DNA of 64,000 nt from Haloterrigena gelatinilytica (lineage in GTDB: Archaea; Halobacteriota; Halobacteria; Halobacteriales; Natrialbaceae). Each line of letters starts with the position of its first letter. Positions within the stretch are counted from its first letter, which is position 1. The position numbers and the translations under genes are program-made. A model generated the notes under the pieces. That model searched no databases. It saw only the letters and a program-made list of their open reading frames with translations, and was not told the DNA's origin. Below, piece after piece: positions 3,897 to 14,571 of this stretch. Location of the stretch: assembly GCF_013342145.1 (NCBI RefSeq), contig NZ_JABUQZ010000001.1, positions 682,001 through 746,000 of the forward strand, given 5' to 3'.

Positions 3897-5267
3897 CTAC
3901 TCGTCGCCGACCAGGCAGTACCCGTGTCCCGGTTCCTCGAGGATCGTCTCCGTGTCGTCGTCGTAGTAGTTCGAGAAGACGGCCCGTTCCGCGTAGTAGA
4001 TTCGCCCGTCGACGGGGACCGCCGCGCTGGTGACTCGACCGCGGTTCCGAACCCGCCACCGGCGGTCACCCGTCTCCTTATCCAGAGCGTACAGGTGCGA
4101 ATCGTAGGAGCCGACCAGTACCGTCTCCGCGGTGACCGTCAGCGCGCCGATGACGCGGCCGCCGACGTCCGTCGACCACAGCTCCTCGCCCGAGGCCGGA
4201 TCGAGCGCGTAGACGTAGCCGTCGTCGCTGCCCATGTAGACGACGTCCGCGTCGGTATCGACCGCCGGGTTCGACATGATCACCTCGCCCGTCTCGAACG
4301 ACCACTCCTCCGAGCCGTCCTCGAGGTCGAGACAGTAGAAGGTCCCGTCCCAGCTGCCGACGTAGCCGTAGCCGTCGTGTGCCGCGACGGTGCCCTTGAT
4401 CTGGGCGCCCTTGCGGAAGGCGCCGCCCGCCTGTTCCTCGCCGTCGGCGTCGGCCTGAAACGACCACGCGAACTCGAGGGAGGGGTACTCCCAGCAGTAG
4501 ACGACGCCGTCGTTCGACCCCGCGAGGATCCGCCCTGTCTCGAGATCGATCGTCGGCGAGGGGTGGGCCTGCCCCCAGATGCGGTCGTCGCTCCACGTCG
4601 GGTCGCCGGTCTCGGGGTCGATCTCCCAGAGCGCGCCGGAGGAGGGCGGGGCGTACTCGGAGATGAGGTAGAGGGAGCCGTCGTGGTAGGCGGGACTCGA
4701 ACCGATCGCGAGCGGGCCGTCCAGATCGCCGTCCTCGGATCGCGTTCGCCAGACCATGTCACCGCTCTCGGTATCCAGCGCGTAGAGATCGCCGTCGTAA
4801 CCGCCGATGAAGGCGACGTCGCCGACGATCGCCGCTGACCCGTGAAAGCCCTTTTCGGTCGCGTCCGTCTGGGTCGCCCACTGGAGGTCGCCCGACGGCG
4901 CGTAGGCGCACACCTTGCCGGTGTCGCCGGCGAAGACGATCGTCTCGCCGTCGGGCGTCGGGACGGGACTCGACTTGGCGGCCGTGTGGTCGGCGGCGTT
5001 GATCGGGAACGACCAGTTGACGCTCACCGACTCCGGGACGGTTTCGTCGGGGTAGTAGCCGAGGCGTCGGAGCCCGTTCTGGAACAGCGACACGTCCTCG
5101 GTGCCGTCGAAGCGTCCGCCCAGCGTGGTCGGCAGGTCGACGCCGACGCAGCCGGCCAGCCCCGCCGCCGCGGCGCCCGCGCTCGCGCCGAGCAACCGAC
5201 GACGCGAGAGGCCGGCGGACCGGTCGCAACCGCGTTCGGAGACCGTATCTCGGTTCGGAGATCGCAT
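3897..5267 (-). CDS. Tat-exported lipoprotein with PQQ-type beta-propeller (copy 1)
   Basis: A 456-residue extracytoplasmic protein. The start at 5267 (MRSPNRDTVSE) leads to a twin-arginine signal with SRRRLLGASAGAAAAG and a lipobox LAGC, so it is probably exported folded and lipid-anchored outside the membrane. The rest is a beta-propeller of repeated blades of the PQQ/quinoprotein type: YALDTESGDMVWRT, WEIDPETGDPTW, YCLDLEDGSEEWSFE, YALDPASGEELWSTDVGG and YALDKETGDRRWRV. Such repeats also occur in non-enzymatic scaffold proteins, so cofactor binding is not shown. A very similar copy lies at 39426-40847 in the opposite orientation. An alternative upstream ATG at 5309 adds 14 residues and is less likely. 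Confidence 0.85.
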   Translation of the reverse strand: MRSPNRDTVSERGCDRSAGLSRRRLLGASAGAAAAGLAGCVGVDLPTTLGGRFDGTEDVSLFQNGLRRLGYYPDETVPESVSVNWSFPINAADHTAAKSSPVPTPDGETIVFAGDTGKVCAYAPSGDLQWATQTDATEKGFHGSAAIVGDVAFIGGYDGDLYALDTESGDMVWRTRSEDGDLDGPLAIGSSPAYHDGSLYLISEYAPPSSGALWEIDPETGDPTWSDDRIWGQAHPSPTIDLETGRILAGSNDGVVYCWEYPSLEFAWSFQADADGEEQAGGAFRKGAQIKGTVAAHDGYGYVGSWDGTFYCLDLEDGSEEWSFETGEVIMSNPAVDTDADVVYMGSDDGYVYALDPASGEELWSTDVGGRVIGALTVTAETVLVGSYDSHLYALDKETGDRRWRVRNRGRVTSAAVPVDGRIYYAERAVFSNYYDDDTETILEEPGHGYCLVGDE

Positions 5268-5376
5268 TGCGTGTGCTACACGTCTCGAGGGGACCTCGAA
5301 AAATCCCACTGGTTCCGCGGCCGTCGCGAACGCGACGCCGGCCGGCGTCCGCGAGGCCCCGTTTCAGGCAATAATG

Positions 5377-5383
5377 TTTATAC
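5377..5383 (+). promoter_or_regulatory. TATA box of the micro-lipoprotein/beta-helix pair
   Basis: TTTATAC 23-29 bases before the ATG at 5406, indicating a leaderless transcript starting at the small lipoprotein gene and continuing into the beta-helix gene. No comparable box lies just before 5561. Confidence 0.55.
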
Positions 5384-5405: not shown

Positions 5406-5564
5406 ATGACCGATTCAGGACCCCGCCGACGGGACGTACTCGTCGCGGTCTCGGGAACCTCCCTCCTACTTGCTGGCTGTTCGGAAAGCGACGCGTCGGT
5501 CGAGGATACCGGCTACGGAGCCGCCTACGGGAGCGAATACGGACGCGGAGGCGAGCAATCGTGA
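5406..5564 (+). CDS. Tiny Tat lipoprotein (52 aa), coupled to the beta-helix gene
   Basis: A 52-residue open frame: MTDSGPRRRDVLVAVSG with a twin-arginine-like RRRDVLV, then SLLLAGC as a lipobox, then a short mature part ending in two Gly/Tyr-rich steps (GYGAAYGSEYGRGGEQS). After cleavage at the Cys only about 28 residues would remain. Its TGA overlaps the GTG start of the next gene by four bases (GTGA), so the two are translationally coupled. The next protein has no signal of its own. Either this is a real micro-lipoprotein that escorts or anchors its partner, or the pair is one lipoprotein gene split by a frame change. Confidence 0.7.
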   Translation: MTDSGPRRRDVLVAVSGTSLLLAGCSESDASVEDTGYGAAYGSEYGRGGEQS

Positions 5565-7075
5565 GCGATCGAACGCCGCGGCTCGGACTCGAGACGTTCG
5601 AGGAGGGCGACGCGTGGGATCACACCGACACGGTCGAAGCCGTCGACCGACACGCGATCGTTCGAGGACCGATCGCCGACCGCCCCGACGAGGGCGAGTA
5701 CGACGACGAGCTCTACCACGCGACCGATCAGGGGATCACGTGGCGCTGGGACGCCTCGAGCGAGGACTGGACGTACTTCGGCGGCAAGGGCTGTTCGGAG
5801 CAGCCGATACCGGGGACGAGTCACTTCGAGGCGGCGGAACTCGTCCACGCGCGCACCGAGGAAACCCCCGTCTGGAACGTCGAAGCACACGGGATCGAGG
5901 GCGACGGCGAGACGGAAGTCGGCGCGGCCGTCCACGACCTCCTCGCGGACGTCGCTGAGGCCGGCGGCGGGATCGTCTACTTCCCGCCGGGCCGGTACCT
6001 CCTCGAGCGGACGCCGCTGATCGGCGACGATACGATCCTGCTGGGCGCGGGTCGCGCGACGGTCCTCGAGGGAACGCGCCCCGACGGCGAGGACGGCCGG
6101 GCGCTGCTCTCCAACAGGGGCTACGACGCGGTCGATTTCGACGGCGCGTCGAACTGGGGGATCTGCAACGTCCGAATCGATTCGCCGGCTACGAACGGGA
6201 TCATGCCCGCACACGCAGAGAACGTCCGGCTGGAACGGATCTACGGCGACCGGATCTACTACCACCACATCGACGTCGTGTCCTCGAAAAACGTCGGGAT
6301 CGACGGCTACTGGGCGACTCGAGGCGGCGAGGCCGGCTCGGACGCGCCGATTCAGTTCGACAACCAGACCACGGAGATCGCGTCGAACAGCGTCTGGGAC
6401 GGCGGCGAGGAGCTGCTGGCCGGGAGCGACGGCACCCCGACGCGGAACTGCATCCTCGAAAACTTCGAGATCGACCCCGAGAACGGTCCGGAGTACGGCG
6501 TCCACATCCACCGGAACGGAAACGAGTCGATCACGATCAGCGACGGGTACATCTCCGGCTGCCTCTATTCGGCGATCCGAGGCGACACCGGCGACGAGAT
6601 CGAGGACCTGACGATCGACTCCGTCTCGTGTATCGAGAACGCGCGGGGGATCTCGCTCGGACACGTCAAGGGCGGCCGCCGAGAGCTGACGGTTTCCAAC
6701 GTCACGATCAGAACCGACAACAGGGGGCTGGCCGCCGGCTCGGGGCTGTACGCGGCCGGGTTCGACGGCGCCGAGATCTCGAACACCGTCGTCGACGGCG
6801 AGTTCACGAACGCGATCCTCTTCGACGACATGGGCGACCTGAAGCTGAGCGCCGTGACGGCCAAAGGCGCGAGGGATCAGGCGTTCCGCTTCCGGAACAA
6901 CGTCGACGCGACGCTGACGACCGCTCGAGCGGCGGACTGCGGCGATGCGGGCGTCTACTCGGGAGCCGGCAGCAGCGTCGCCTACGGCGGCGTCACGTTC
7001 GAGGACGTCGGCACTGAGACCGACTCCGACGGCGACGGGGCGTTTCGGGAGTGGAACGCGTCCACCTCATCGTAA
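5561..7075 (+). CDS. Right-handed parallel beta-helix (pectate-lyase-like) protein without signal peptide
   Basis: A 504-residue protein beginning at GTG 5561. The N-terminal 70 residues (LGLETFEEGDAWDHTDTVEA, then DELYHATDQGITWRWDASSE) look like a small capping or attachment domain of the type found before tail-spike-like helices. From about residue 110 the pattern GDGETEVGAAVHDLLADVAE, then GGIVYFPPGRYLLERTPL is typical of the Pectate_lyase_3 family, followed by repeated coils (ISNTVVDGEFTNAILFDDMG, LSAVTAKGARDQAFRFRNNV). Polysaccharide binding or cleavage is a family-based guess; no catalytic residues can be assigned. The preceding overlapping gene supplies the only Tat signal. Confidence 0.75.
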   Translation: MSDRTPRLGLETFEEGDAWDHTDTVEAVDRHAIVRGPIADRPDEGEYDDELYHATDQGITWRWDASSEDWTYFGGKGCSEQPIPGTSHFEAAELVHARTEETPVWNVEAHGIEGDGETEVGAAVHDLLADVAEAGGGIVYFPPGRYLLERTPLIGDDTILLGAGRATVLEGTRPDGEDGRALLSNRGYDAVDFDGASNWGICNVRIDSPATNGIMPAHAENVRLERIYGDRIYYHHIDVVSSKNVGIDGYWATRGGEAGSDAPIQFDNQTTEIASNSVWDGGEELLAGSDGTPTRNCILENFEIDPENGPEYGVHIHRNGNESITISDGYISGCLYSAIRGDTGDEIEDLTIDSVSCIENARGISLGHVKGGRRELTVSNVTIRTDNRGLAAGSGLYAAGFDGAEISNTVVDGEFTNAILFDDMGDLKLSAVTAKGARDQAFRFRNNVDATLTTARAADCGDAGVYSGAGSSVAYGGVTFEDVGTETDSDGDGAFREWNASTSS

Positions 7076-11044: not shown

Positions 11045-11129
11045 GCGCGGGTAGCCAAGCTAGGCCAACGGCGCAGCGCTTAGGACGCTGTCCCGTAGGG
11101 GTCCGCCGGTTCGAATCCGGTCCCGCGCA
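11045..11129 (+). tRNA. tRNA-Leu (anticodon TAG)
   Basis: 85-nt class II tRNA. Acceptor arms GCGCGGG (11045-11051) and CCCGCGC (11122-11128) pair fully, with discriminator A at 11129. The D arm contains AAGCTAGGCC, the anticodon stem CAGCG/CGCTG encloses loop CTTAGGA with TAG in the middle, a long variable arm follows (TCCCGTAGGGGT) and the T arm is CCGGTTCGAATCCGG. No CCA is encoded and no intron is visible. The T-arm to acceptor half is repeated twice just downstream. Confidence 0.97.
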
Positions 11130-12100: not shown

Positions 12101-12913
12101 ATGGCCGGGTTAGACGACGTGTTCGGGGATCTTTATGCGAGCATCGATGCCGTCCTCCTCTTCTCGCCGAGTGGCTCGTACTACGAACGCTTCGCGGACG
12201 TCGACGACCTCGACGTCATCGTCGTCGGGACGGAAAACCCCGTCAACGCCGACGTCTTCGTCGAACTCCCCCTCGCGTTCGACGACATCAAAGAGCGGAT
12301 CAAGTTCGGTCTCGAGGGCGCCTTAGAGCAGGACCTCATCGAGGACGGCGACCAGCTCGTCTGTGCGACGAGTCTCTACGGCGACGAGATCGATACGGTC
12401 TCCCGGGTCCGCGCCGACGCCGAGACGCACACGGGCATCTACGACCTGTTCGTCAAGTCCCGCGCGGAGCCGGAGGTGATCAAGGCCGTCCTCGAACTGG
12501 CGATCGAACTCGGCAAGAAGGGCCAGAAGGGGAAACCCGTCGGCGCGCTGTTCGTCGTCGGCGACGCGGGCAAGGTGATGAACAAGTCCCGCCCGCTGTC
12601 GTACAACCCCTTCGAGAAGTCCCACGTCCACGTCGGCGATCCGATCGTGAACGTGATGCTGAAGGAGTTCTCGCGGCTCGACGGCGCGTTCGTCATCTCC
12701 GACGCGGGGAAGATCGTCTCCGCGTACCGCTACCTCGAGCCGTCCGCGGAAGGTGTCGACATTCCGAAGGGGTTGGGGGCCCGACACATGGCCGGGGGCG
12801 CGATCACGCGGGATACGAACGCGATCACGATCGTGCTCTCGGAAAGCGATGGGCTCGTCCGGGCGTTCAAAGCCGGAGAGCTCATCTTGGAGGTCGATCC
12901 GGAGGCGTACTGA
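12101..12913 (+). CDS. dacZ: Diadenylate cyclase DacZ
   Basis: Makes c-di-AMP from two ATP. The 270-residue archaeal DacZ has an N-terminal regulatory fold and a C-terminal DAC domain. The catalytic motifs are DGA at residues 194-196 (in FSRLDGAFVISDAGKIVSAY) and the RHR-type motif as RHM at 228-230 (GLGARHMAGGAITR). c-di-AMP is known to control osmotic and K+ homeostasis in many prokaryotes, and DacZ is known from Haloferax. The stop is followed after one base by the start of an MscS-type channel gene, an operon that fits osmotic control. Confidence 0.95.
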   Translation: MAGLDDVFGDLYASIDAVLLFSPSGSYYERFADVDDLDVIVVGTENPVNADVFVELPLAFDDIKERIKFGLEGALEQDLIEDGDQLVCATSLYGDEIDTVSRVRADAETHTGIYDLFVKSRAEPEVIKAVLELAIELGKKGQKGKPVGALFVVGDAGKVMNKSRPLSYNPFEKSHVHVGDPIVNVMLKEFSRLDGAFVISDAGKIVSAYRYLEPSAEGVDIPKGLGARHMAGGAITRDTNAITIVLSESDGLVRAFKAGELILEVDPEAY

Positions 12914-12914
12914 T

Positions 12915-13682
12915 ATGGTAGAGTGGCAGACGCTCATCAACGAACCGGCCGTGATAGCCGCGGCGGTCCTAGCGCTCGGGCTCGTCGTCGGCTATCTGGT
13001 CGGGCGGCTCAACGAAGAGCTCCTGCAGGCGTCGGGCGTCCCGGAGGCCGTCGAGGGGACGCCGTTCGAGCGGACCGCCCAGTCGATCGGCACCTCGACG
13101 GTCGAGATCGTCGCCAGACTGAGTTCGTGGTTCATCTACGGCATCGCCGTGCTGACGGCGATCCACATCGCGCAGTTGCTCGACACGGAAGCGTTCTGGC
13201 TCCGGGTGACGAGTTTCATCCCGCAGCTGTTCATCGCCGTCCTCGTGCTCATCATCGGCTTCATCATCGCCGACAAGGCCGAACTGGTCGTCAGCGAGTA
13301 CCTCCGGGGCGTCAAGCTCCCCGAGGTCTCCGTGATCCCGAAACTCGTCAAGTACAGCGTCCTCTACGTGACGCTGATCATCGCGCTCGGACAGGTCGGC
13401 GTCCACGTCGTCGCCCTGCTGATCTTGCTGACGGTGTACGCCGTCGGCATCGTCATCGTCGGCACCGTCGCCTTCAAGGACTTCCTCGTCTCGAGCGCCG
13501 CGGGGATCTACCTGCTGCTCAACCAGCCCTACGGGATCGGCGACGAGATCCGGATCGGCGACCAGACGGGGATCGTCCAGGAGGTCGACCTCTTCGTCAC
13601 GAAGATCGAGGACGATTCGGAGGAGTACATCGTCCCCAATCGGAAGGTCTTCGAGAACGGGATCGTTCGGATGCGAGACTGA
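12915..13682 (+). CDS. MscS-family mechanosensitive channel
   Basis: A 255-residue membrane protein. Hydrophobic segments lie near residues 8-28, 70-90, 97-120, 140-160 and 165-190; the last leads into the MscS pore-like helix and the beta domain signature NQPYGIGDEIRIGDQTGIVQEVD, then YIVPNRKVFENGIVRMRD. It lacks the large C-terminal vestibule of E. coli MscS, as in short archaeal forms. Its start is one base after the dacZ stop, so both are translated from one message; release of solutes under c-di-AMP-linked osmotic control is an inference. Confidence 0.9.
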   Translation: MVEWQTLINEPAVIAAAVLALGLVVGYLVGRLNEELLQASGVPEAVEGTPFERTAQSIGTSTVEIVARLSSWFIYGIAVLTAIHIAQLLDTEAFWLRVTSFIPQLFIAVLVLIIGFIIADKAELVVSEYLRGVKLPEVSVIPKLVKYSVLYVTLIIALGQVGVHVVALLILLTVYAVGIVIVGTVAFKDFLVSSAAGIYLLLNQPYGIGDEIRIGDQTGIVQEVDLFVTKIEDDSEEYIVPNRKVFENGIVRMRD

Positions 13683-13737
13683 ACGCTCGTTTTTCGGCGG
13701 TTCGTAGCGCCCGTCGTCGCTCTCGATGAGCGTCTCG

Positions 13738-14571
13738 TTACTCGAGCGAGAGCCCCGCGTGCCACCGGTCGGCGCCGGCCTCGCGTTTGATGCGGTCCAT
13801 CTTCGCCAGCAGGTGCGTCGCCAGCGTCGCGGTCTCGGCGGCTCGGGACTCGCCTTCCGTGCGGAACTCGCCGGTCTCGCGGTTGGCGTAGACGGTACAG
13901 ACCGCGCCCGCGCGGAGCCCGTAGAGGTTCGCCAGCGTCAGGATCGCGCTGGCCTCCATCTCGATGTTCTTCACGTTGGCTTCCTTGAGGTCCTCGACGA
14001 GGGTCTCGGAGCCCGCGGCCTCGAACCCCTCGAAGCCGGGGCGGCCCTGTCCCGCGTAGAAGGAGTCAGCGCTCATCGTGACGCCGGTGTGGTAGTCGTA
14101 GCCCAACCGCTCCGCCGCGGCGACGAGTGCGCTGACGACCTCCCCATCGGCCGTCGCGGGATAGTCCTCGCGGACGTACTCGTCGCTGGTCCCCTCCTGT
14201 CGGACCGCCCCCGTCGTGATGACGAGGTCGCCGACGTCCATCTCGGGCTGGATCGCCCCGCAGGAGCCGACTCGGACGAAGGTGTCACAACCGACTCGAG
14301 CGAGTTCCTCGACGGCGATCGCCGCGGAGGGGCTGCCGATCCCCGTCGACGTGACCGAAATCGGCGTCTCCTCGTACGTTCCCGTGGCAGTCCGGTACTC
14401 GCGGTGGCGGGCCGCGATCTCGTGGTCGTCCCAGAAGGCGACGATCTTCTCGAGGCGCTCGGGATTCCCCGGCAGGAGCACGGTGTCGGCCACGTCCCCG
14501 GGGCCGACCTCGAGGTGGTACTGGACGTCGGCGTTCGGGTCTTCGCTGTCGTCGATATCGGCGCCGGTCAT
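13738..14571 (-). CDS. udp: Uridine phosphorylase-type nucleoside phosphorylase
   Basis: Phosphorolysis of nucleosides to base and pentose-1-phosphate. 277 residues of the PNP/UDP superfamily: LLPGNPERLEKIVAFWDDHE, the phosphate-site region TSTGIGSPSAAIAVEELARV, FVRVGSCGAIQPEMDVGDLV, and the nucleoside-site NIEMEASAILTLANLYGLRA. Uridine specificity is the best guess from the overall pattern but other nucleosides are possible. Cytidine deaminase and a phosphohexomutase nearby fit nucleoside salvage. It shares a symmetric TATATA box with the divergent DUF488 gene. Confidence 0.9.
   Translation of the reverse strand: MTGADIDDSEDPNADVQYHLEVGPGDVADTVLLPGNPERLEKIVAFWDDHEIAARHREYRTATGTYEETPISVTSTGIGSPSAAIAVEELARVGCDTFVRVGSCGAIQPEMDVGDLVITTGAVRQEGTSDEYVREDYPATADGEVVSALVAAAERLGYDYHTGVTMSADSFYAGQGRPGFEGFEAAGSETLVEDLKEANVKNIEMEASAILTLANLYGLRAGAVCTVYANRETGEFRTEGESRAAETATLATHLLAKMDRIKREAGADRWHAGLSLE

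Follow-up and report, generated by a model that had tools for sequence, protein, structure and literature searches.

Gene pair at the locus

The window, by which we designate the whole stretch of 64,000 nucleotides of Haloterrigena gelatinilytica DNA that was analysed, contains a small ORF running from an ATG at 5406 to a TGA at 5564. Its 52-aa product reads MTDSGPRRRDVLVAVSGTSLLLAGC followed by SESDASVEDTGYGAAYGSEYGRGGEQS, with 28 residues counted from the lipobox Cys. A large ORF extends from a GTG at 5561 to a TAA at 7075 and encodes a protein of 504 aa in which a signal peptide is absent. The features of the pair are the following:

5377-5383, + strand: TATA-box-like TTTATAC of a leaderless-type promoter, about 26 bases before the ATG; read in the sequence, with a similar box at an equal distance in most relatives
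5406-5564, + strand: 52-aa Tat lipoprotein, kept in 29 loci, median pairwise dN/dS 0.40
5406-5477, + strand: Tat signal peptide (RRRDVLV ... LLAG); RR, L and lipobox A-G invariant, Cys in 28 of 29 relatives
5478-5480, + strand: lipobox cysteine codon, residue 25, from sequence and conservation
5514-5543, + strand: YGAAYGSEYG tail, proposed docking peptide with three Tyr-Gly at a spacing of 4; Tyr invariant, motif type shared with the tail hub of provirus L123
5561-5564, + strand: GTGA stop/start overlap, seen in the sequence; a 2-base gap instead in most relatives
5561-7075, + strand: signal-less, tail-spike-like right-handed beta-helix protein of 504 aa (Pfam, PHROG, AlphaFold2, Foldseek)
5573-5668, + strand: putative docking segment TPRLGL...GDAWDHTDTVEAVDRHAIVRG, residues 5-36; replaced in Tat-fused relatives, common to the Halorubrum tailed virus OP630575
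5669-5839, + strand: latter half of the N-terminal domain (residues 37-93), of tail-fibre type; weak Mtd_N matches come from related domains elsewhere
5861-7012, + strand: right-handed beta-helix body, residues 101-484 (AlphaFold2, Foldseek)

The position of the TATA-like box and its recurrence in most relatives make leaderless transcription plausible. The preliminary description of this DNA, which reported a Tat lipoprotein with a Tyr/Gly tail, a GTGA overlap and a signal-less 504-aa protein, agrees with the sequence at every point that could be checked against it. The Pfam matches were PF12708 (8.7e-14) and PF13229 (6e-11) in the large protein, with none in the 52-aa lipoprotein, and no NCBIfam model was found for the tag. 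The pair stands alone amid unrelated cellular genes, with the genes for a PQQ-repeat lipoprotein and a malic enzyme on its two sides and no tail gene module. The divergent neighbour (3897-5309, - strand) is the PQQ-repeat (beta-propeller) protein, which has its own Tat-lipobox signal SRRRLLGASAGAAAAGLAGC and adjoins the pair in the closest relatives only. Elsewhere in the window, a tRNA-Leu gene (11045-11129, + strand) is overlapped by ORFs (RDRIRTGG, GPDSNRRTPTG) that are likely spurious translations.

Conservation of the micro-lipoprotein

Relatives of the beta-helix protein were drawn from GTDB genomes together with near kin, and nearly all of them are preceded by a small ORF for a Tat lipoprotein, whose end and the start of the large gene are no more than a few bases apart. 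An alignment of 29 of the small proteins shows no variation at the two Arg of the RR, at one Leu, at the lipobox A-G or at the three tail Tyr. The Cys of the lipobox is found in 28 (Ser in L035) and the three tail Gly in 28 to 29, while the third bases of these three Gly codons vary in 9, 16 and 12 of the 29. The lipoprotein is, judged from its aligned codons, under purifying selection. Conservation is limited to the Tat signal, the lipobox and the YGxxYGxxYG tail, the stretch from Cys to tail varying in length and composition, so that the mature part measures about 18 to 32 residues over the loci, the shortest ones, at 18 residues, being CTSRSGYGTAYGRRYGAE and CSSQSGYGTTYGTAYGEE. With its twin arginine, the hydrophobic stretch that follows and the lipobox Cys, the protein has the make-up of haloarchaeal Tat lipoproteins, and it is predicted to be a membrane lipid anchor.

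The association between the two genes is close. In 293 haloarchaeal genomes, the lipoprotein profile gave 20 full-length matches, every one of them directly before a beta-helix N-terminal domain. A tested neighbour gene was shared with the window in only 4 of 26 loci, which indicates that the pair stays together while its surroundings change. The DNA pattern encoding YGxxYGxxYG occurs twice in the 4.55-Mb genome, once in this ORF and once where there is no apparent gene.

Two genes in variable frame relation

The preliminary description had left two readings open, a carrier lipoprotein docking its partner or a single protein in a programmed or accidental -1 frame, and had pointed to related loci as the place to tell them apart. 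The overlap and the frame relation in the window would suit a -1 frameshift joining lipoprotein and beta-helix. Against it, some 30 loci from at least six Natrialbaceae genera keep the two genes split; measured from the start of the large gene, the stop of the small one lies at +4, -2, -1 or -14 bases, and Natrialba has a frame relation unlike that of the other genera. Moreover, the second frame is open only two codons upstream of its start in several relatives, and the large-gene start codon is conserved as ATG or GTG. Conservation of the split in differing reading-frame relations excludes frameshifting, and the single-protein reading was rejected as having next to no probability. An in-frame fusion by a one-base difference in close relatives was looked for and not seen; the fusions of Halovivax, Natronoglomus, Natronococcus and G016 are true domain replacements, with a Tat-lipobox signal in the place of the docking segment.

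A tail-spike-like body behind a viral-type N-terminal domain

The AlphaFold2 model of the body is a right-handed beta-helix with a pLDDT of about 88 over most of its length. Foldseek found it most like the AlgE4/AlgE6 C5-epimerases (1e-9, at an identity of 13-16%), PfbA and phage tailspikes, and PHROG returned tail-spike matches (PHROG 2234); conserved His, Asp and Arg residues are present. The protein is built like a viral tail spike, probably as a homotrimer, and we infer an activity on polysaccharide. Together with the fold, the glycosyltransferase clusters that house the cousins L145 and L148 suggest a surface polysaccharide or exopolysaccharide as the target.

Residues 1-93 are highly conserved. 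The profile of this N-terminal domain gave 21 strong matches in the 293 genomes, and the sole match without a lipoprotein was a provirus (L114, identical to IMG/VR L123), in which the domain is 67% identical. It also occurs just after the tail genes of the Halorubrum tailed virus OP630575, at 58% identity (E 5e-28). The N-terminal domain is thus, by its homologues, viral in kind: the protein belongs by homology with tail fibres, and the window gene is located outside a tail module. A PDB profile search with the domain gave no significant match. In the AlphaFold2 monomer of the full protein, residues 1-100 have no confident fold (pLDDT about 30), which weighs against the mechanism that we propose below. 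An alignment of divergent N-terminal domains (A3) varied too much to be used for scanning viruses. The 66-kb record OP630575.1 (L124, L160) itself contains two tail modules that differ in hub and fibre.

The triplet motif on virus tail hubs

The tail hub of provirus L123, encoded a few genes upstream of the fibre, carries GYGVSYGTNYGGG, and an aromatic-Gly triplet is found at the corresponding place in four relatives of this hub. In L130, GAYGDGTFGDGLYP occurs twice in the hub, whose gene immediately precedes that of the fibre, and the hubs of HRTV-4 and HRTV-DL1 start with three spaced YG or YS, the N-terminus of the latter being AYGGEHGATYGGDNGSVYS. The HRTV-DL1 hub is homologous to the baseplate hub of HFTV1 (PDB 9h4p, E 1.3e-14), whose N-terminus reads MPQLGDSKLGESQLG, also written MPQLGDSKLGESQLGSP, with residues 1-20 of gp44 being QLGDSKLGESQLG. 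In the cryo-EM structure of HFTV1, trimeric fibres are connected to the hub N-terminus (PMC12494034). ORF24 and ORF25 of HRTV-DL1, the hub and a protein that includes part of the N-terminal domain, were both detected in purified particles (PMC10544981). The lipoprotein tail has the form of such a hub docking peptide, namely an equally spaced aromatic/Leu-Gly triplet on the partner of a fibre. An equally spaced [YFW]G triplet occurs in 12 of the 515 distinct proteins of the fetched loci, and 11 of these 12 are Tat partners or viral tail proteins; since this set was enriched by design, the proportion shows specificity among these proteins and is no estimate for whole genomes. Viral scans with the hub proteins gave few relatives, and more came from proviruses in haloarchaeal genomes.

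Spacing rule and exchange of partners

A triplet spacing of 4 corresponds to G-x2-aromatic in the fibre segment, and a spacing of 5, which goes with a one-residue insertion in that segment, to G-x3-aromatic; this holds in 14 of 14 scored pairs, which are partly non-independent, eight coming from one class. The rule was noticed in the first pairs and then tested on new loci, having been seen before it was formalised. L147 (6/5), the spacing-8 hubs (HRTV-4, HRTV-DL1) and the segments with ambiguous landmarks (L045 and the PPRT class) were left unscored, as were the two-repeat tags of L144 and L148, both with spacing 5 and G-x3-aromatic. L147 and the two spacing-8 hubs are exceptions to simple spacing and count against our preferred explanation. 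The motif type tracks the fibre class across viruses and cells: Y4 is found in L123 and the lipoprotein, W5 in the L220 hub (TWGEGTWGEGVWGG) and the L045 Tat protein (GWGEGSWGAGPWGG), and Y5 in L130/L146 and L149.

Anchors of three kinds accompany the beta-helix body. The first is the YG lipoprotein, with the TPRL segment. The second is a Tat/CFI-box protein of Natronorubrum halalkaliphilum (L045), which bears the W5 motif and is combined with a segment LPRPVPG..., a combination matched by the hub of provirus L220 and its fibre LPVPG.... The third is an in-frame Tat-lipobox signal with loss of the docking segment, this fusion replacing residues 1-36 in L042 and L043 and the whole domain in L019 and L127. 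Such swapping of partners places the docking function in residues ~5-36 and implies that the beta-helix body belongs outside the cell.

Proposed mechanism and alternatives

From the conserved pair, the invariant motif, the co-occurrence, the viral relatives, the spacing match and the direct fusions, all read from sequence, we consider it probable that a viral hub-fibre docking peptide placed on a Tat lipoprotein anchors and co-exports a trimeric tail-spike-like enzyme. The micro-lipoprotein would provide a Tat export signal and a lipid anchor bearing the docking peptide alone, whose Tyr-Gly repeats, resembling those of viral tail hubs at their fibre sites, would bind residues ~5-36 of the enzyme, perhaps with one repeat for each chain of the trimer. 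The signal-less enzyme would fold in the cytoplasm, bind the lipoprotein tail, cross with it through Tat and stay tethered at the cell surface, where it would act on polysaccharide. Co-export through Tat is made probable by the coupling of the genes and by the lack of a signal on the enzyme. Of the earlier view of the lipoprotein as a carrier, the Tyr/Gly dock finds strong comparative support: no other part of the mature protein is conserved, it is in every case found together with the N-terminal segment that it would bind, and a like motif and segment are carried by viral hubs and fibres. The interpretation as a whole is supported in part, with carriage through Tat as a complex being a putative step.

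The export step is where an alternative can be placed that shares all the docking evidence, namely that the lipoprotein is solely an anchor and that the YG tail catches a beta-helix protein which leaves the cell by lysis, vesicles or an unknown export route. Viral fibres assemble without export, the Tat step is inferred, and a beta-helix trimer would be a large load for Tat, a point that counts against our mechanism. However, a stop and a start within a few bases suit assembly before export, and direct Tat fusions of the same body make Tat export of this protein feasible, so that we hold the anchor-only alternative to be unlikely. Still less likely, in our estimation, is that the two products are co-transcribed and make no contact, the YG tail serving for an interaction with the membrane or S-layer or for a modification and the viral domain match reflecting a viral origin of the operon. 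It would account for the YG-rich stretches that stand behind Tat signals in some haloarchaeal proteins having no partner encoded next to them, and for the N-terminal-domain genes that lack a YG partner; it does not sit well with a motif type and spacing that match the fibre class in unrelated partners and in viruses, with the invariable co-occurrence of profile matches, or with the replacement of the docking segment when a signal is present in cis.

A further proposition is compatible with docking and concerns the use of the pair and not its mechanism: the pair could serve viruses in lysogenic conversion, displaying a depolymerase on the host that removes virus receptors and thereby excludes superinfection. 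The viral character of the N-terminal domain agrees with this, as do the Tat YG gene between tail hub and spike in L146 and the YG micro-lipoprotein beside a hub remnant in L142. The isolation of the window pair among cellular genes and the glycosyltransferase surroundings of L145 and L148 fit a cellular role instead, and we regard a lysogenic use as unlikely.

Relation to known systems

The docking proposed here resembles hub-fibre attachment in HFTV1 and HRTV-DL1 in the three hydrophobic-Gly repeats on the hub N-terminus and in a fibre N-terminal segment of the same type; it differs in that the peptide is borne by a 52-aa cellular lipoprotein and that the fibre-like protein is cellular and encoded outside a tail module. 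[NiFe] hydrogenases are exported by Tat hitch-hiking, and the pair described here likewise consists of a signal-bearing and a signal-less partner, encoded by adjacent and coupled genes, of which the latter would cross with the former. A ternary precedent is PaoABC (PMC4273604). The known carriers are folded subunits, whereas here the mature carrier is mainly a peptide tag, of ~18-32 residues and with a predicted lipid anchor. The RR motif and lipobox are those of haloarchaeal Tat lipoproteins (PMC2945643), from which the micro-lipoprotein is distinguished by an almost absent mature domain and a tail that is the proposed dock. Phage tailspike depolymerases (CBA120 TSP3, Sf6 tailspike, phi29 gp12) share the right-handed beta-helix according to Foldseek and HMM comparisons, but the window gene is chromosomal, outside a provirus and coupled to a lipoprotein. 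The likeness to the mannuronan C5-epimerases AlgE4/AlgE6 and to the PF12708 rhamnogalacturonase/epimerase family lies in the beta-helix fold.

A literature search, outside which most subscription journals lay, found nothing on haloarchaeal tail-spike lipoproteins or haloarchaeal hitch-hiking. Hitch-hiking and hub-fibre docking are each known, and the literature searched contains no description of a micro-lipoprotein that combines them. Our analysis suggests that a joint from virus assembly has been put to new use by cells, which retain enzymes at their surface with it. If true, it would offer a complete and minimal example of such a joint converted into a tag for sorting and anchoring proteins, a route for signal-less tail-spike-like enzymes to the archaeal surface, a predictable docking code for haloarchaeal tail fibres, and a short, genetically encodable surface-display tag for haloarchaea.

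Wider occurrence of tags

A broader class of fibre segments, TDNHxYxTPxxGxxDWHxPLNxNF..., is found in 64 of the 293 genomes. Among 30 loci of this wider domain class that were read, a protein with a strict triplet is encoded directly upstream in nine, a proportion that speaks against the preferred explanation; these triplets are mostly C-terminal tags on Tat proteins, such as DDYGEQGYGQYGYGG. The partners examined, larger Tat proteins from other haloarchaea, have CBM6/35 or LamG domains, and the cargoes give weak Mtd_N matches, with an S74 chaperone domain in one. At L143 and L145 a triplet was sought and none was found, which is a further point against. It can tentatively be hypothesised, as a possibility for which we would not claim even chances, that a general tag-and-plug system exists, viral-derived or shared with viruses, in which short aromatic-Gly triplet tags dock the N-terminal segments, of tail-fibre type, of signal-less effectors encoded by separate genes. 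The tags would be carried by Tat-exported micro-lipoproteins and by CBM6/35, LamG and CFI-box proteins, and specificity would be set by tag spacing and aromatic type. In building cell-surface assemblies, such a system would be the viral equivalent of the cohesin-dockerin principle.

Several arrangements were observed beside these loci. In L291-L293 (G005), YGxxxYGxxxYGG stands right after the Tat signal with no fibre-domain gene adjoining, which was also counted against the preferred explanation. L143 (G022, 12446-14183) has a tandem of two TPNH-type fibre-domain genes in the vicinity of genes that resemble those for asparagine synthase and ABC transporters. At G122:C2:209071 and 211440, two different fibre-domain genes lie on opposite strands about 2.3 kb apart, and similar opposite-strand pairs recur in several genomes of one family. 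In L146 (G021) and L113, genes for a hub, a Tat YG/CFI-box protein and a spike are located near a repeat array (reading FQQDPCWVEA when translated) and apparent cas genes, possibly a provirus remnant beside CRISPR. Finally, L142 (G048:C125, 5227-5394, reversed strand) encodes a 55-aa Tat lipoprotein ending in GYGLAYGQTYGR. This arrangement, in which the lipoprotein immediately follows the remnant of a tail hub and precedes a broken beta-helix spike, may connect the stand-alone pair with the tail module of a provirus.
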